Of a stretch of DNA of 64,000 nucleotides, positions 8,144-19,173 are shown one piece after another. A program made the translations under genes and the position numbers. Position 1 is the first letter of the stretch; every line of letters starts with the position of its first letter. The DNA lies in NCBI RefSeq assembly GCF_963675165.1, contig NC_087386.1:732931-796930 (forward strand), given 5' to 3'. This DNA comes from Halichondria panicea (taxonomy: Eukaryota > Porifera > Demospongiae > Suberitida > Halichondriidae). A model generated the notes under the pieces. It ran no database searches. It was not told where the DNA came from and saw only the letters and a list, made by a program, of their open reading frames with translations.

Positions 8144-11100
8144 TCAACTCGTATTCTCTACAATGAATCTACAAATGTCTGTAGCAGTGTCTCCTCTTCT
8201 CAGTCCTATGGCAATTTCCACCAAGGCCCTGAAGGTAGCCCTGGAAGGATTCACTCTTCGCCACGCTCTCAATGCATGAGCCACTCCAGCTTGATTGCCA
8301 TAACGACGTGTGACATCAGTTACTTCACTGAGGTCGGCTGGGGTGAGGTTGAGTCGATTCAGCAGGTTAGGAGTTGTGACTGAATGCGAAGAAAAAAGCT
8401 AAGATAATGATAGTCTATATCAAGCACTAAAAATGACCCACATGCAGCCAGGCTAATAAAAAAAAAATACGCAAATACTGAAAATAGTTACCTGTGATGC
8501 TATCAGCCAAATTGATGAGCTTCACTGAGGGCTTTTTGAGAGCGCCTGACAGAAGACTCCATGTTACATCTTGCGTACTCAGGAGCTCAGCCAACATTTC
8601 ACGCAAGCACGACACATTATCGCCACGATGCTTGCTATCGATGTTGGTGAGAATGAAATGACTGAGACCTAGAGCCAATCCCAGATTGAACCAGTGAGGG
8701 CTGGCACTTGCATGTGCAGTGTGTAGTTTCTCGTAAACATGTTGCAGATCGTCAATTGTCAAAGCCTGTACAAAAACAGCAATCAACAGGGTTTCATTTG
8801 GTGAGGGTTGCATGTCCCCTCGGAAATACCGTGAGGTTTTGGTGAACAATAATTGTAAATAACTTCTTGAGAAAACTCAATGGGAATACAAATGAGCAAC
8901 AATAATTATTCTTAATAGGGCAGTATAGTAATGGATTCCTGGGGGCAAGCCACGACCCCAGAGGAGGATGGTCAGGGTCAAAGGTCTTCTGTTTTACAGA
9001 GGACTTTAATTGCATTTTGAACATCTATATACTCTTTCAGTAGAAAATTAATGAAGAATGGAGGTACAAAAGAAAGATTAGACGATGGAAATGCAATTTG
9101 TAAGCAGATTCTATCCTCTTCTGCCACGAACCATCTAGATGCATGTACACTGTATGTCACCTTCACCAAATATTTTACATACACCATTTGCTCAATCCCC
9201 TTACCACGATGATATATGTATGTACAGTATAATAATTATGATTTAGAGTACCTTGTGCATGCTCAGCAGCAGGTGGGGACATTTCTCTGACAATAGAATG
9301 ATTTCACTCTCAGGGATTTCTTGATCGAGCTGTTGATGAGTCACTCCAGTCTTCCTGCACACATCTTCCATTACAGAGGATGATTGAAATTTACCTGAAG
9401 AAAAAACATGAAATTCAATATCAGAAAATATCTAAAATGAAAATATACGACACTCTAATAAGTTCTAATACTTGCCATGCATGTGCTTACCAGATTGTTG
9501 CTGCTGGTTACTCAGTGTCTTTTTTGTACACATATCACTCGCAACAGAGGATGATACATCTAATTGAGGGGAAAACAAAATATAAATTTGAATATTAAAA
9601 ATCACTGTACTCACCAGAACCTTCGCTATCGTCCAGCCAGATTCTATCTTCATCACTGAGCTCTCCCCACACACGTGTCTGAAGGGAGCACTTCCAAAAC
9701 TTACAGCCATTTCGTTCGCTCACATCAGCAAGGTGCAATTTGCGGATGCTTCCAGTGCTTTTCTTGCTGCACGGGCAAAAGATGGCTGTCTTGGGTGTGT
9801 CGTTGTTGTAATGCAACATTTCACACGACGATTTAATGCTGATCAAAATTTCGTTTCGAATTGTAGGGCATACTTGTTTGCGAAGAGCAAAAAGCACATC
9901 GATATACACTTCAAGATACGAGAAGGAGTCGATCAGAGCCACGGTGCACGGGAGATTGGGGATTTCAAGCTGGATACAATTTTTAGCTAAAATGCTTGCT
10001 TCTCCTGAAGGAAGCAACACTTTCCAGCCCAGCCTCTTGATCACGTCCACAACTAGACAGCAAAATACCCCAGAGCGAATACACCCACTACTAAAGTAGA
10101 TAGCGAAGGGTGATATTGTGAAGGAGGAACGAATCTTGTCTAGCTCAGCAGGTGGGATCGATGTGAGTAGAGATGGCATGAAGAACTCGGCTTGGTGGGT
10201 AGTGGCTTCCACTAGTGAAATGGGAGCAATCACAAGAAGATCTTTCATGATCAACAGCATATCTTCTGGAGAAAAGATGCCTTCAACGTAATGCTTCTTA
10301 AAGAATCGTAGAAACTTCAAGATCTTTGAGCAAATAACCAAATCGAGTGGCTAATTGGAGACATTCTTCAATGCCTAGAATACCTCGCTCGAGACTGGCA
10401 GATAAACTCTGGAGAAGTGAATCCAAGAATGACCACCAGATGGGCATTTTGACTTGTAGCGGAATAGAGTCCTCAATAGCAATTCTAATCCTATTGGCAG
10501 TGGCCAGTGAATCTTCTTCTCGGCTGATTGTGTTGAGACCAAAAATCAGATTGTTTAATCCAAGATTTTCGTACACCAATAGCTTCTTGATATCGGGTGG
10601 AAGCATGTCGAGAATCTCTTGATTCCTCTTGATAAGTGTATCCGAGCTCTTCAGCTGATCAAAGAATGTGCCCACAAAGATCATCTTCGGCTTCTTGTCT
10701 TGTGAGGTATGGGACTCAATGGATCGAATGAGACTCTGAAGTGTCTCCCCGAGGGTCATGTGAGATGCATGAGGACTACCAACAAGCTGCCCATCCTTGT
10801 AGTACTCGTCAGAAGGGAAACTGGAGAGTTCGTCAATCAAACGCAGAACTATCAACGCCACTGAAATGTGCTTGATGAAGAGAGGGCTGATGTCGTGGAA
10901 TTGCGGCTGGCCGCCACAGTCGGTAACATACACCCAGTTGGAATCAAACAGTTCTCCTTCTTGCTGGTCACTGCTCGACAGTTGGTTAGTTCCCTGTGTG
11001 GGTGGCTTCAGCTCTTCTGCCACACCACTCACTACACTCACTATCACATCATCAATGGCTTTCTTCAACATTCTTGCAGATCCAGAAAGTGTATCGGAAT

Positions 11101-14100
11101 CGTTCCTCAATGGGCTCGAAATGGAATCAGAAATTTGCTCATCGGAACCAGAAAATAGCTCGGTTGTGGTCATCTTCTTTAAGCTCTCGGCAACCCTTGA
11201 TGCTGTGGATGGATCGGCGCTTTCTTTTGGTAACTTAGCGATGATTTCAGCAAGTAGCTTGCGCAGCTTTGGCTGAGACATCTCTTCCCAGCCTCTTCCA
11301 GTTGACTTGAATTTCGTGTTGGACACGGGTCGAATGCGTACTGGCTTTTCCATACAAGGAGTGCTGTCACGCTGTAGCGGAGGGGGCTTGTCGGTTAGCA
11401 GGTGCTTGAGGTTGGTCTTCCCTGTTCCCGCCGGTCCAAACATGAGCATGTTGACAATGTTGACCAAGACATATCCGTGCTTCATCGCCTCATCAAACAA
11501 CCGCTTCGCTGATTCTAAACAAGACGTGTGTATGTGGTGTTAGGAATGTTAACTATGCAATACTTCAGAGCTGGGTGACAAGATGGACTATTATTATGAT
11601 GTCACCATAATTATGATGCATGTGATTAAACCGATCATTACATGAGGAATGTGCTATGCTTGCATTCATGGATGTCACTATTAAGTACACATGTAGTAAG
11701 CACAGTAGAGGGTACGCCCCACAACCCAATGGATATGAAGCAAAACACATAATTAAAAGGATGGTGGTTGTGAGTGGGTGGGGGAATGAACAATGGAAGG
11801 AAAATTACATTGAGGTCTGGAAAACATGTAAACAATATAAAGGCAACAAGTATGTATAAAAGTCATACAGTCCGATCACGTCGCCTCAAAGCATAATTTG
11901 GTGAGGTATAAAACACATAACAATAGCATCATGTTTTATGCAACTCGCCCTCGGGCTCATAAAATGATTGCTAGTCTGCCTAAACTGTACAATACAGTCA
12001 GTTGCCTAGCAACGCAAGCTTAAAAAGGTGGTGGGTGGAGCAAATAGTTGATAAGAACATGATTACATACGTATGGTATATACATGTACATAATACCATA
12101 TAGCGCGACATTTTCGAGGCACTTATATTTCATGGAATGACCTCTAAAGCATTTCGTTGCACACAATGTTTGTGGGTTGACCGCTTACCGGAAGCCATGC
12201 CTTTAATCTTTGCATGTTATAGCAGATAATTAGTACAATTTTCGTGGATTGCTAACCCATGAAATCAGCGAAAATTAAGCCCCTCGAAATATCGCGCTAT
12301 ACACGGTAACTGCTTTAAAATGGATCTAACTGGACACAGCAGCTGTGCGTATACGTAAGAAGCCAATGAAGTGCCAGTGGAAATGAAGGACATGAAGCAG
12401 CTGAACATAAACCACCTTTAAATCGTAAACCTTTAAAGCTTGCTAAGTGTGTGACCCACCAATGACAGGGAATACATGTACTGGGTAATAATGATGTGGC
12501 TGATCACTACAGGAATGTGCTATGCTTGAATTAACATGATGATGTCATAGTTAAGTAACACAGTACAACGTCACGAACCCAAATCATTGAAAGTTGGTAT
12601 TAAAAAGTCCAATAAACCATATCCATACCACCACAGTGTGTAGAGTAGTAACAGGAACAATGCTCTAGTACACTGTAGTGTGCACAATCAGGGGCAGTTG
12701 CCTAGCAACACAACAAATATGATAGGCGAACAAAAAGGTTGTGGGTGGAGCCAACGCTTTTGCAATACACGATTATATAAAGTATGAGGACCTCACAACA
12801 GCTGTAGGTACAGTCTACTAATAACACACTACATGTAAGTTGCTACAGGTACGAGTGATTGCAACTATGAGCATCAACACTCACTGTACTATAAAGTTCC
12901 TTGCTCCCCTCACCTTCCTTTCTCTGCCTCTCCTGTCCTTCTCCTCGTATCTCAGCAATGCTATTCTCGTAGCGATGTATCCACCCCTCACAGTCTTGTA
13001 TCCCTGAGACACACTTCTTGATCTCCCCCTCTACCTCCTCCAGCTCTCCCAGCAGTTGTCTCCGGTCCTGGTCAGTGATGTCACCAGACAGTCTCTGTTG
13101 GAGGGAAGCTCTTCTCTGGGGGAGTAAAAAAATTATTATAAACTTTATATACGACTGAATGAGCATTCCACTAAATAGAACATGCAGCTGATACAAATGT
13201 ACAAAATAATTATCAAAATCAGCAACCACCAACCTTGGCAAGAATATCATAATATCATATTTACCCGCTATACGGTATAACCTCACACAGTCAAACAGTA
13301 AAAGTGGACTTATAAAACATACACAAAGGTAGACAAAAAGCAACCATTCATCATACAATGGACAGTACATGTACACACATTGTCGTTCTGCTAGACTACG
13401 TGTACCACTCTTACCACGAGAGTAGTAAGTGCAACTGTCAACACTCACCGTCTCATGACTAGTCAGTTCACTCTCATTCCTAGCCTTCACCTGGACAAGG
13501 TGAACAAGACAAGAGTGGGTTAGACTGTGTGTTTGTGGTCACACATTATGAGTTGTCTATAGGAGCAACCAGTGTAGCTACTAGCTATAGAGTCTGGTAA
13601 GGAATGAGACTATTACAAACTGAATGCATATGAGGTGTACGGTATGTTTGCCAACATTGTTTGACTCACTTCCTATTGTTCCAGATATTCAGTAACCATG
13701 GAAATGTAGGGAGAGAGAAAAGAATATAATCACAAGCCTGTACACTATGAATGCCAATACACATGTACTCATGCAACTCAAACAATACTGACACAAGTAC
13801 AGTCACAAGTCAGTGCAGTGTCCCGCTCACCTTCTGTTTAGTCCAATGAGACACCAGCGCCAGACACACATGGAAACAGAGAGAGGGGGATGATGGTAGG
13901 AGCAGTGAGTGCATTCATACATGTCTGTATATACTGTAACTTACATTCTGTTGTTCCAGTAATCATTAGCAGTAGTCACATTAACAAGCAGTAGGACACG
14001 GACATGTAGAGAAATGAACATGTTCAAATACACGAATGCATTCACACATGTATACATCAATTATTGCAAGTACACGTCTGTATAGACTGGCGGCGACAGC

Positions 14101-17100
14101 CCCTCGCGTGCGTAGCGCGAGGGACTGGCAAACTGCCTATCAGTCACTCGTCTCAGCTGCAACGAGCATTGCAGCCTATCAGATTGCTCAACGTCATATT
14201 AGCCCTGTAATTGTAACCGCACTTACACTTTAGGGGATTCAGTATTAGTACAGTTGAGCCTCGGTTATCCGAACACCTTTGTCCCCGGGCCCATTCGGGT
14301 AAGTGAAATATTCTGATAATCAAAAGCTGGCTTTTTGCCAGCCACGTGGGCAATTTCCTACTGCGCATGCTCAGATTGCACTATGCTCTAGCATTCGGAT
14401 AATCGAGGATTCGGATAACCGGGATTCGGATAACCGAGGCTCAACTGTAGCTGAATCTCATAGCAAAATTTAACCACATTATCTATAACGATATTCATGT
14501 TTAGTAGTGTCATACGATCTATTACACTTCCGCTGAGACAAGTGACTGATAGGCAGTTTGCCAGTCGCTCTATCGCCGCCAGTCTAACGTCTGTACAGCA
14601 TGAAACTTTCAGTACGTACTAATCCTAAATAAAGTCACGCAAGTTATTCTTTCTGCCTTCATGCAGTAGTACATGTATACAAGTCAGCCTAGTACGCCAT
14701 TATATGTACATGCAATAAACTCACGCTCTGTTGTTGAGTAACAGTCCACAGAGGGTACATGTGAGTAGAGAGGGATATGAACACTGGTAGTACACACACT
14801 GGCTAGTACACACACAGGTACTCGGTACTAGCAATAGCAGATAATGGAAGGGTTAGTGGGTGGGTCAGTGGAAGGGACGATAAACGGTACAACAAGAATC
14901 TTATATGTACAACTTTGATACGTATGATTTTGTTTGTCGTACAATACAACACATGCACACCATGAGACACACACACAATCACAACATACCTCAATAAGAC
15001 CCTGAGACACATCAAATGGTACATGTGAGGGAGAGATTTAATTAACACACATACAAGACATCAGATCAGTTGAACGCTGGTGTGTATGGACTGACTACAC
15101 ATAGCAACAAGTGGCTAGACCTAGTATAGAAAAGCTAAGAAATAAAAAAGTTGGGGAAATATTGAGAAATAGGCAACAAGTTTTAGGTTCAGTAGGCACT
15201 TAATTGGTTGGGGAATTTACATAAACACAAATTTACATGTACACAATGTACACAATGGTGATATTTCGAAATTGTGCCCGTAAAATGGGATTACGAATTA
15301 AGCAAGTTTAAAGCCGTGGTCTACCCTATACGAGGGAGAGGGTCAGCTCTAGAGAACAAGGGACACACGCTAATGATGCTAGGTAACCAGTACATCCGTA
15401 CACATTGCAGCTGAACCATTTTAGTGTGTGGACATTGAGTACTCGTATTAAGCTCACCTCCTACAGTAGTCCAAATCAGTGTGTGGTCCAACATAGGAAT
15501 GAGTGTGTGCATGGGAAGAGACAAACACGATAATGTACGTACCAACTAATGAACTTAGGTGTATATTCTACGAATATTAAAACTACAACCTAATAAGTTG
15601 TGTGGGCCTCGGCTAATACCAAGTTGGCAATATGGAAAGAGACAAAGACAATTTACGAGTTTCTAGTAACCATTAAAATGAGTGTGCACGTGCAAACACA
15701 ACTTACACACTGTTGATCCAGAGAGGGAGAGTCCACAGGGCAAACAGTGGGAAGATAGTAAATGAATGATTACGAGGTTGAATGTGATCATACTAAATAT
15801 TTCCCTATATAACACTATGGCACTGCACACACACAAGAGTAATAATGGGGAAGTAGAAACATCACAGAATATGCAACAGACACTAAATACTCTGACAACA
15901 CACACCAACTTACAGACTTTTGTTTCAGAGGGTCAGTCAAAGGTGAGGTGGAGATACATGAAATGGAAGGAAGAGAACATTAGTGCAGTGATACAGTACA
16001 CTGGTGATTGCATGACACAGGGGAGGGGAAACAATTGTGGACAGCCAAACATGCAGACTGAAACACTTGATTAACCATGCATACTTTCAGGTACTACTAC
16101 GAGTAGCCTCGATCCCAGGCCGCACTTCCCACTTCACTTAGGGAAGTGGGCCTGGTATCGACTGCTTGTGCATGCGCTAATATCCCCCCGGTATCTGGGG
16201 GCTTTGGATAACATCGTATATGCTCAGTAAAACTGTGACATCACAACGAACGAAAGTGGATTGAAGGAAGTGATAGAAAGTTCGATTGAGTTTCTAGCCC
16301 ATCTGATAGCATTCTCTAATAGCTACCCTTAGCCTGCTATGTTAACAAAAGACTCACAGCCTGCAACAGTGTGGATGACGATCGTCTGAACGGAGTGAAA
16401 GCTGACAAGAGCCTATATGGACAGGCCACGCCCATTTAACACTAACTTTGGTGAAAGTCTACTATACTACTGCTACTGATTCTATCAGAAGAAAATAGCT
16501 GTACAACAAACATACACAGCTCTGTCTCTAGCTAGCTAGCTATATAGCTATGTGTATGACTTTTAGGATATTTTCTCTGATGAATCCAGTATTATAGGAA
16601 ATTTTACGGGAAAAAATATCCAATAATTTGGCGCATGCGCAAGCAGTCGATAGCAGGCCTTCTTTTCTATGAAGGCCGGTGAAGGAGGCTATACTACGAG
16701 TAGATCTACTTGTCTCAATTAAGGAATAGTATCACATTCAGTTATCCGTATGTGCTCTTCTTTACACTGTCTACCTCCTAACAACAAGTGCTCAGAGCAC
16801 AAGCATGTCAGCTTGGTAGAATGTGATTGAACACAACGTACCTTAATGAACATCTGTTGTCCATCCAGAGAGAGTGGTACATGTGGAGAGAACAACAACA
16901 TGAGATAAAACACCTCACACTGACAGGGTAGAGTGTAGGCACTATACTGTGATGAATGAATGATGCCAAGTGTGTTTATGGGTGGTCAACAAGTACATCT
17001 AGGCACTAGGAGAATGCACTGATCATTGAGTATCTATCTATCATGTGAATATCATACCCTTTCCCAATGTTGAAGTCCATCCTCCATCAACTGTGGGGAA

Positions 17101-17132
17101 CTAGCAGCATTCAGGGTTGTAGATTCAGCCAT
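8144..17132 (-). CDS. Coiled coil / P-loop GTPase-COR-like / double Death-domain protein with micro-exon region
   Basis: Exons on the minus strand: 17132-17058 (start, MAESTTLNAASS), candidate micro-exons (separate entry), 13490-13449, 13115-12914 (charged coiled coil, LLGELEEVEGEIKK), 11514-9615, 9559-9491, 9394-9252, 8765-8492 and 8379-8144. Phases agree at every junction. The long exon has a Walker A (GPAGTGKT), a switch-type DCGGQPQFHD and a GTFFDQL that may stand in for NKxD. After these comes a region resembling the COR part of Roc-COR proteins. The last two exons look like Death folds (WFNLGLALGL..TWSLLSGAL and RAWRRVNPSRATFRALVEIA). About 980 residues without micro-exons. One extra T near 10305 breaks the frame between LLKDLEV and RFFKKHYVEG. 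Domain order recalls DAPK1-like Roc-COR-Death proteins; a role in innate signalling or cell death is inference. Confidence 0.7.
11640..12760. repeat. Internal duplication within the large intron
   Basis: GGAATGTGCTATGCTTG, followed by a GTCA..TTAAGTA stretch, occurs at about 11645 and 12515. CAGTTGCCTAGCAAC, followed by AAAAAGGT and GTGGGTGGAGC, occurs at about 11999 and 12696. The copies are diverged and in the same order, separated by about 700-870 bp. The rest of the intron (11515-12913) has no exon that I can support. Confidence 0.6.
12094..12308. mobile_element. MITE, TACCATATAGCGCGA family
   Basis: Terminal inverted repeats TACCATATAGCGCGA and TCGCGCTATACACGGTA. The interior shares TTTTCGAGGCACTTATATTT with the copy at 37575-37777. 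About 215 bp, non-coding, TA-like ends. It sits in the intron between the coiled-coil and P-loop exons. Confidence 0.85.
14083..14586. mobile_element. Foldback element interrupted by a nested MITE
   Basis: The left arm (TAGACTGGCGGCGACAGC, then ACTGGCAAACTGCCTATCAG) pairs with the right arm (CTGATAGGCAGTTTGCCAGT, then CGCCGCCAGTCTA). The left arm holds its own small hairpin (CCTCGCG..CGCGAGG). The separate element at 14251-14447 lies between the arms. Confidence 0.8.
14251..14447. mobile_element. pogo/Tigger-like MITE with TA target duplication
   Basis: Terminal inverted repeats CAGTTGAGCCTCGGTTATCC and GGATAACCGAGGCTCAACTG are flanked by TA on both sides (14249-14250, 14448-14449). No transposase. 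The terminal sequence resembles pogo/Tigger ends. A related relic (CGGATAATCGAGGTTCTACTG) lies at about 25130. Confidence 0.85.
16104..16162. mobile_element. Small hairpin element (TAGCCTCGATCCCAGG family)
   Basis: TAGCCTCGATCCCAGGCC pairs with GGCCTGGTATCGACTG around a second stem, CACTTCCC/GGGAAGTG. Related hairpins are at 7934, 38684 and 53898, with a partial match near 23830. Confidence 0.75.
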
Positions 17133-18352
17133 TTCAAGAGAAGGTCTGGAAGGCCCTTATATTTCTTTGTGGGTGGTTAGAGGCATGAGGGGGAGGGGCT
17201 TGTAGCAACACCCACACATTGTTCAATAAAGAATGGGTTCAAAGGACACATAATTATTGTTCCAAATAGAGCACAGAACATACATAAAGCAAATAAGTAT
17301 CAGAAGAAGAAGCACTAAAGAAAGAAGAGCTCAGGAACAATGGCCCACCTGACACTAATTGCCAGAGCCAGTGATGGACTACCTCTGTCTGCATCCATTG
17401 TCAATGAAGAGGTAGAGGAGCTACAGTAGATAATACAGTACAGTCTGCATTGGTCCCATCAGGACACTGTACTGTATGCAGCTCAGTGACATGAATAGTT
17501 GTCAAGTCATGATTCTGTAGACATATAAAGAGAACCTTGCTAGAATAATACGTGTGTAGTGTGTGCTATCTTTAACAGCTTGAATTAACTGAATTGTTGC
17601 ATTCTCCCTCTGCAGTCTGGCCGGGATTATGCTGAATACCAACCCAAGGCCAAGCAGATATTCCGCAAGCTGTCGTCAGTCAGCCCCCCTCGATGCTCAA
17701 TCGAGTGTGACCCGGGTCGTATGGTGTTCCAGTAAGCACTCTCCTGTGAATGTCATTATTGCCTCGTGGTGTGTATGATGATTGGTGCTCTGTCATGGTA
17801 TAAACTGATGCAATGGATGGCCTTTTGTTTGTGAGCATTTGCTTAACTGTACCATACACATTGTAAGTGGTGTGTGTTATACATAGGTCCCTCTATAGTG
17901 ATTGTCTAACAAGGAACTACCAGTGTACATGTAGTCTAAGAATAGTTGGAACTTGGTTGGTGATATTATACTCCAGTTTAATAGTGGATGAGGGCGATGG
18001 CTTTGAGCTTGAAGCACACACACTAACATGGACCCCCCACACAGCTACATCCTTGAGGAGGGGATATGCTACCTCGCCCTGTGTGACCCCACCTATCCTG
18101 CCAAGCTGGCCTTTAACTACCTCGAGAATCTACACAAAGACTTCAGTGAGCAACATGGCAACGATGTACACAAGGCCAGTCGACCGTACCACTTCATTGA
18201 GTTTGGTACGTATTTCTGCCATCCATATTTTGTAGACTTAATTATAAGGTCATGCTTTTTTCCTGTGTCAGCATTGGACATGCACAGCTGGGCAACACCA
18301 GCACTTGCAGTTTCTTGTGTATGTACTGTTTCAATTCAGTGTTGCTACCTGT
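16245..18352. repeat. Right copy of the segmental duplication (matches 1-2510)
   Basis: Direct repeat of the left end of the window, without the 403-bp MITE. Here SEC22B continues into intact exons 4 and 5, and the minus-strand gene continues into its full length, so this is the complete locus. The similarity ends in the SEC22B intron after exon 3. Confidence 0.95.
17133..17339. promoter_or_regulatory. Head-to-head promoter between SEC22B (+) and the MAEST gene (-)
   Basis: Only 207 bp separate the two start codons. The minus-strand leader just upstream of its ATG (AGACCTTCTCTTGAAATG in transcript sense) is also found before the other copy's ATG (near 885) and before the EDEM/DUSP12 chimera (near 7724). 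I see no clear TATA box. Confidence 0.6.
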
Positions 18353-19173
18353 AACTGTGGTAGCTTCTGGAAGCTAGTGTTTAGTCCACTCTTGTCTGTT
18401 GTTTAGCTCAGCTAGTCACAACAACAGTTAACAATGGAGACAATGCAGTCTATACTCTAGCAGTACTATATGTAAAAAAAAAAAGCCCATTGTATGTGCA
18501 ATACTTACTTAGAATTTGAACTACTTAACATCAACTCTTTACTTCAGAGTGGTGGCCCACAATACTAGTAACTCCACCCACCACACACACACACACACAC
18601 ACCCTCTCAGGTGCTGAGATTAACAGAATCAAGAGGAACTATCAAGAGTCTCAGACACGAAGGAGCTCACAGCTGCGTAACCTAGGAGATGAGCTGCAAG
18701 GAGTCCAGAAAATCATGTTTGAAAACATTGACTCGGCCTTACAGAGAGGAGAGCTTATCTCAGGTGTGTGCAGTAGTCATGTGATCCCATGAGGGATAGG
18801 GGATACCATTTCTAGCCTCCTCATTGTTGTGTCTGCTTACTTAGGAGCATACTACTAGTAACTACTGCTACAGTTATAGCATTTTATCACCCGTACTTCA
18901 TTTAGCTTCCTTACAATAATTACAGACTGTCCTTTCTCTCACCCACCCACTCACCCCACCCCTCACACACCCACTCACCCACACACCCACTCACACTCAC
19001 ACTCACACACACGTGCAGATCTCAGTGACAAAGCAGGGAAGCTGGTCGACCACTCTCGTGCCTACAAGAAGGAAGCTCGCTATCTTAACTTGAGACAGTC
19101 ACTAGCCGCCAAAATAGCCATAGGTGTTGTTATATTCCTTATTTTGATTTTTCTTAGGTACCTTCTCTTCTAA
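17340..19173 (+). CDS. SEC22B: SEC22B, ER-Golgi longin R-SNARE
   Basis: Five exons: 17340-17411, 17616-17731, 18045-18205, 18611-18763 and 19019-19173, giving 218 residues (human SEC22B has 215). The N-terminal longin domain spans exons 1-3 ([49 protein letters not shown]). The SNARE motif spans exons 4-5 ([32 protein letters not shown]). A C-terminal membrane anchor of about 20 hydrophobic residues ([14 protein letters not shown]) ends the protein. The family acts as a SNARE in transport vesicles between ER and Golgi. Splice phases agree at all junctions. This is the intact member of the duplicated pair. A (CA)-rich tract precedes exon 5. Confidence 0.95.

Follow-up and report, generated by a model that had tools for sequence, protein, structure and literature searches.

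Isolated exons of only 3 nucleotides (nt) are known, e.g. in RPS24, and the zinc fingers of PRDM9 and variable NLR repeats combine a constant scaffold of repeated units with exposed residues that are hypervariable. In mouse Ncam a single-codon exon is spliced (PMC8042270). The micro-exon genes (MEGs) of schistosomes, as portrayed in the part of PMC4350168 drawn on here, contain very small symmetric exons that make up most of the coding region; variation is proposed to arise by alternative splicing, and some members have a ratio of non-synonymous to synonymous substitution rates (dN/dS) above 1. Large lineage-specific families of Death/TRADD-N proteins, linked to cell death and non-self recognition, have been outlined for marine animals including Amphimedon (PMC8195603), and PMC13149111 was also drawn on, in part, for the comparison with known systems. 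Here we analyze an array of tiny exons ahead of a gene with a GTPase-like exon and a death-domain-like end, located in a 64,000-nt stretch of the Halichondria panicea genome (NC_087386.1, positions 732,931 to 796,930; "the window"). The gene very probably belongs to a tandem, germline-diversified family in which ten phase-0 exons, seven of them single codons, would be constitutively joined to encode an N-terminal helix with a paralog-specific recognition face.

Results

The array is located on the minus strand and consists of nine micro-exons (c1 to c9; 12, 3, 3, 3, 12, 3, 3, 3 and 3 nt) and a 42-nt exon (c10), all of these cassettes being flanked by AG and GT and in phase 0 (Table 1). It is bounded by the first coding exon, E1, which begins MAESTTLNAASSPQLMED, and by the coiled-coil exon E12. 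A first-pass annotation of the window had described cassettes of 3, 6 and 12 nt with similar acceptors between two phase-0 exons. Its list of seven 3-nt cassettes (TCT, TGT, GAG, AGC, AAT, AAG, GAA) is exact, all seven being found on the minus strand, and 12-nt cassettes are present as well, but no 6-nt cassette could be confirmed. Both anchoring exons are indeed in phase 0 at the array, E1 comprising 75 nt and E12 opening in phase 0 at 13115, and the acceptors are related, as a 21-nt repeat occurs four times and a 25-nt repeat three times. The pattern AGNNNGTRAGY has 21 matches in the window versus 9.6 expected from shuffles; for a single 3.47-kb strand this corresponds to about 0.26 chance matches versus the seven cassettes present. 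Two additional matches in the array are not 3-nt cassettes: one falls at the end of the 42-nt exon, the other (16362-16352) in an insertion that several copies are without.

When compared with its own genome, the 3.47-kb array gives at least 144 matching pieces (a lower bound; best 40 of 1124 candidates scored). On contig C10, to which the window belongs, the pieces group into 28 copies including the window gene, 13 on the minus and 15 on the plus strand, and 23 of the 28 were read; pattern searches revealed a second cluster on contig C13. Allowing few flank mismatches, c2 is found at 46 places genome-wide (29 on C10 and 17 on C13), c3 at 45, c5 at 40, and c6 and c7 at 39 each.

In an alignment of 20 copies, from which three truncated copies were excluded, mean diversity outside exons is 0.037. 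With stricter column filters, nucleotide diversity (pi) is 0.0293 in introns away from the cassettes and 0.0116 in the cassette flanks (25 bases upstream, 8 downstream). Triplet pi is 0.50-0.69 at eight codons (c2, c3, c6, c7 and codons 1-2 of both c1 and c5), and even the smallest of these values is not attained by any of 3292 intronic triplets. The triplet pi of c4 and c8 is 0.037 and 0, respectively, and these two exons serve as an internal control: they are 3-nt exons of like build that encode core residues, and they are almost unchanged. Change between copies is thus saturated at the exposed codons, but not at splice sites, in intron flanks or at core codons. The notion of a diversification device, put forward in the first-pass annotation, is borne out to the extent that cassette codons are hypervariable between copies inside near-invariant flanks.

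The ratio of non-synonymous to synonymous diversity (pN/pS) points in the same direction. It is 2.37 for c2, c3, c6 and c7 taken together (pN 0.62, pS 0.26), 1.73 for codons 1-2 of c1 and c5 (pN 0.68, pS 0.39) and 2.39 for c10 (pN 0.20, pS 0.08; 17 copies in all three cases). The GTPase-like exon has a pN/pS of 0.46 (pN 0.060, pS 0.131; 16 copies) and is under purifying selection. The values of 1.7-2.4 at exposed codons versus 0.46 in the GTPase-like exon are those expected of diversifying selection, albeit from few synonymous sites.

Third codon positions are less variable than the first two (0.37, 0.32, 0.17). The 169 single codons recorded for c2, c3, c6 and c7 end in T (122), C (26) or G (21) and never in A, and they include no stop codon and no Lys, Glu or Gln codon. 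The simplest reading is a constraint on the base adjoining the donor, which would agree with the variable codons of E12, an ordinary exon, varying at all three bases. The bold reading is a dedicated process by which bases one and two alone are rewritten, through targeted mutagenesis or templated transfer instead of ordinary mutation and selection. It would account for near-saturation at these two bases (pi about 0.57-0.74) next to an often frozen third (0.04 at c2, 46 places), for codon sets resembling NNT or NNY and for flanks that are nearly untouched. It would, however, have to leave c4 and c8, which are built alike, unrewritten; no template sequence was found, no search aimed at one having been made; and with E12 suggesting that the frozen base may reflect splicing, we regard it as highly improbable.

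The lengths of the cassettes remain multiples of three. Indels that break the multiples of three were sought in the copies and none was found, in line with the earlier claim that all lengths are multiples of three: all 196 cassettes with AG/GT borders in 22 of the 23 C10 copies conform, three false c10 pattern matches (AA/GT, in truncated copies) being excluded and L020 contributing nothing to this count although c6-c10 are visible in it. The single c1 of 36 nt instead of 12 nt remains in frame. In three older copies (L029-L031; identity in blastn pieces 79-96%, 71-80% and 73-89%, respectively) 29 of 30 cassettes have AG/GT borders and a length divisible by three, and the 30th, c1 of L031, is not alignable. 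Gap bases near the cassettes versus further out number 1 versus 170, 34 versus 429 and 13 versus 341 in the L029-L031 comparison. In the 20 copies the dinucleotides AG (11 acceptors) and GT (10 donors) have a pi of 0, and donor positions +3 to +6 vary slightly, only in c1 (one position, 0.10) and c3 (0.28). The rarer c3 donor, GTTAGT, is paired with TGG (5 of 45 places) and never with a different codon; the pairing fits an exon-end G that compensates for a weaker donor, but may also be due to common descent. A four-allele intronic column upstream of c8 (13861-13860; CTGGCG, CTTACG, CTCACG or CTAACG) was considered as a hidden extra cassette and rejected, being without an AG/GT frame; it is possibly a branch-point-like site (CTNAC or CTGGC context).

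Joined in genomic order, the cassettes encode 29 residues with the residue pattern of a coiled-coil helix, the core being near-constant and the exposed positions variable. Residues 3, 7, 10, 14, 17, 21, 24 and 28 are near-constant (mean diversity 0.03; 17 copies with all ten cassettes) and most others vary, the constant residues having the 4-3 spacing of a coiled-coil core. One block of 12+3+3+3 nt equals one heptad, and there are two such blocks, xxI[KE]-x-x-E followed by xxI[EK]-x-x-K. In an exhaustive comparison of c1-c9 orders none of 362,880 beats the register of the genomic order and 2,400 (0.7%) equal it; 126 of 20,000 random orders and none of 20,000 residue shuffles of the joined stretch reach its score. 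E12 has the same 4-3 spacing in weaker form (417 of 20,000 shuffles reach the score).

As the near-invariant residues fit a 4-3-4-3 core only if all ten cassettes are spliced in, in order (or in one of few equivalent orders), we strongly infer that all of them are present in the mRNA and that it is the paralogs that are diverse rather than isoforms. A schistosome-type gene, in which tiny symmetric exons serve alternative splicing and give many in-frame variants per gene, is unlikely by comparison. Any cassette could in principle be skipped in frame, all being symmetric and in phase 0, but leaving cassettes out displaces the heptad register: with all cassettes included the score is 0.631, which no skip pattern out of 511 attains, the closest being the loss of c1 alone (0.611). 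Moreover, the diversity seen is codon replacement between copies, and the micro-exons account for little of the coding region. Alternative splicing as the main source of diversity was dropped on the register test; of the schistosome-like layout proposed at first, the symmetric micro-exons stand and the many splice variants do not.

The cassettes might also not be exons at all, but repeated splice-like modules within introns or hypervariable non-coding sites. Very short exons are hard for the spliceosome to define, and no spliced retrocopy was detected in the best 40 of 133 candidates, where each of the 46 matches lies within one exon. A non-coding origin would nevertheless leave unexplained why lengths are always multiples of three with invariant AG and GT, why third codon positions are less variable, why 169 codons contain no stop, why the core cassettes c4 and c8 are near-invariant and why a heptad register emerges only after the cassettes are joined, which makes it very improbable.

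The copies probably exchange DNA. For 135 intronic variants in 19 copies, linkage (r2) falls from 0.82 at distances below 50 bases to 0.15 at 500-1000 bases and is 0.32 beyond 2 kb, the shuffled baseline being 0.06. The introns between hypervariable codons span about 110-930 bases, near-identical among copies. Across genes there is no association between the codons of c2 and c3 (p 0.23), c3 and c6, c6 and c7 (p 0.53) or c2 and c7, and at c2, c5 and c7 a shared codon does not go along with clearly closer flanks, as it does at c6 and, slightly, at c3. Single-codon exons could therefore be an evolved device that mixes receptor residues singly, with swaps that leave the helix intact, an idea we consider possible but rather doubtful. 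It is favoured by the decay of r2 within 1 kb and by the independence of most neighbouring cassettes, and it is opposed by the association of c1 with c2 (p 0.0004) and by the rise of r2 beyond 2 kb. Furthermore, the two codons within c1 are as unassociated (p 0.16) as separate cassettes, so the mixing need not be due to the introns.

Downstream of E12 follow the GTPase-like exon, an exon without a convincing family match and the last exon. The GTPase-like exon has about 700 codons in intact copies and is open for at least 720 codons in 34 other near-full-length relatives (404-residue query, at least 79% identity). In the window (9595-11539) it consists of two overlapping frames split near 10,310, is open for 413 codons only and seems to be without the equivalent of about 65-70 codons, out of frame; the window copy is probably broken or affected by an assembly error. 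On C13 an E12 of the same type is followed by GTPase-like exons with about 42% identity, suggesting that the variable N-terminus is common to two lineages of signalling parts. Two distant relatives on contig C6 (L033, L034), whose GTPase-like exon is about 42% identical, have an E12-like exon several kb ahead of it, and no cassette array was recognized there by simple patterns and blastn.

Several side observations concern the build of the copies and of the locus. L011, L013 and L024 extend from E1 to c4 only and are truncated duplicates next to another gene, whose frames presumably belong to a xanthine dehydrogenase; L010 has the 36-nt c1 and is without c7-c9; in L026 c4-c6 are deleted, the deletion starting at the c4 acceptor. 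The c1-c2 intron of the window gene carries an insertion with terminal inverted repeats (16104-16691), a short mobile element that is absent in 9 of 22 other C10 copies examined and has matches of about 95% identity on ten other contigs. A second inverted-repeat element lies in the c6-c7 intron (14119-14570), with another one nested within it (14249-14449). Near-identical exon pieces on the plus strand at both ends of the unit (2160-2513 and 18013-18354), which we take to be SEC22-like, are traces of tandem duplication. The same start region (CCTTCCAGACCTTCTCTTGAAATGGCTGAAT) is present at 17165-17120, before the window gene, and at 7745-7700, ahead of a same-strand gene further downstream that presumably resembles EDEM.

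Table 1. Exons of the window gene, in order of transcription (positions in the window).
Feature	Position	Strand	Remarks
E1, first coding exon, 75 nt	17058..17132	-	MAESTTLNAASSPQLMEDGLQHWER; final codons differ among copies
c1, 12-nt exon, MFIK	16842..16853	-	codons 1-2 hypervariable; ATT (Ile) invariant in 20 copies
c2, 3-nt exon TCT (Ser)	15914..15916	-	14 distinct codons over 46 places
c3, 3-nt exon TGT (Cys)	15707..15709	-	12 codons over 45 places
c4, 3-nt exon GAG (Glu)	15458..15460	-	core position; 40 GAG and 4 AAG over 44 places
c5, 12-nt exon, GLIE	14990..15001	-	codons 1-2 hypervariable
c6, 3-nt exon AGC (Ser)	14725..14727	-	14 codons over 39 places
c7, 3-nt exon AAT (Asn)	13945..13947	-	11 codons over 39 places
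c8, 3-nt exon AAG (Lys)	13831..13833	-	core position; AAG in 18/18 C10 copies and in L029-L031
c9, 3-nt exon GAA	13670..13672	-	Glu/Lys/Arg in 18 C10 copies; Val in L031
c10, 42-nt exon, VKARNESELTSHET	13449..13490	-	several codons variable
E12, 202-nt exon	12914..13115	-	second helix; variable codons amid regularly spaced Ile/Leu/Val
GTPase-like exon; P-loop GPAGTGKT, DCGGQ (motifs by eye)	9615..11514	-	frameshifted in window copy
Exon without convincing family match	8492..8765	-	ends by eye
Last exon, weak Death-domain match (E 0.033)	8144..8379	-	ends by eye

Discussion

Judging from the build of the family, its most likely role is in recognition, as a surface diversified in the germline and carried by a death-domain-like protein of immunity or allorecognition. 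Most likely, each gene would give rise to a single protein with an N-terminal helical hairpin that presents a face set by the gene's own micro-exon codons. Diversifying selection would act on the exposed helix face, where paralogs diverge, and DNA exchange between copies would keep the introns and the rest alike. More tentatively, the face may bind a variable partner, microbial or allogeneic, and the GTPase-like module and the death-domain-like end might relay a signal, possibly of the death type.

Several observations weigh against a constitutively spliced, diversified receptor family. Besides the lack of spliced retrocopies, c9 is less distinct than the other variable codons (triplet pi 0.31, reached by 18 of 3292 intronic triplets), and the oddly restricted third bases are not predicted by simple diversifying selection. 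Micro-exon pS is also raised (0.26 and 0.39), at about two synonymous sites per pair; since it rests on few sites and is far above intron diversity, pN/pS alone understates or blurs the contrast, and the contrast of the variable codons with the introns is firmer than the ratio. Several copies are truncated, frameshifted like the window copy or have E1 out of frame (the latter in 2 of 22 copies, L013 and L027). Finally, the domain assignments are weak: the Roc match of the GTPase-like exon (E 0.026-0.032, 14.9-15.2 bits) is below the Pfam cut-off of 27, the Death match (E 0.033, 14.8 bits, profile positions 21-82 of 86) is below 22.6, and a PDB search with the GTPase-like exon gave nothing under E 0.2. 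By the curated cut-offs the protein thus qualifies neither for the Roc/COR (ROCO) family nor for the Death-domain proteins. Thus, the immune-type reading of the first-pass annotation is upheld, but its labels "GTPase" and "Death" amount to weak matches and motifs recognized by eye.

With schistosome MEGs the array shares very small symmetric exons, as all 196 cassettes show. Nevertheless, it is not a schistosome micro-exon gene: the coding region is not mostly micro-exonic, as the nine micro-exons encode 15 residues and are followed, after c10, by E12 and the GTPase-like exon. Here ten cassettes precede a long gene, variation lies between paralogs and the register favours full inclusion. Whereas the 3-nt exons of Ncam and RPS24 are isolated, seven are present here in one array, and four of these are hypervariable between copies. 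The family may resemble the Death/TRADD-N expansions in being large, lineage-specific and putatively linked to cell death and non-self recognition; the diversity described there is one of domain architecture, no micro-exons being described in the part of PMC8195603 drawn on here. No similar array was found in the open-licence PubMed Central literature on hypervariable microexons, on exons of 3 nt and, for sponges, on immune microexons, Roco-Death proteins and hypervariable receptors. We know of no parallel for a single-codon exon as a unit of diversification.

This novelty rests on the cassettes being spliced and would be weaker otherwise. If they are spliced as proposed, the spliceosome joins seven single-codon exons per transcript in several dozen genes, with the diversification of the family located in these exons, and the family would be a test bed for exon definition at 3 bases and for the diversification of germline repertoires in immunity or allorecognition. 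As such exons would escape standard gene prediction and read mapping, similar arrays may be overlooked elsewhere. The variable residues of PRDM9 and of NLR repeats reside inside ordinary exons, whereas those of the Halichondria array are mostly in an exon of their own. Given splicing, animals that lack adaptive immunity would here have a novel means of constructing a variable surface for recognition.

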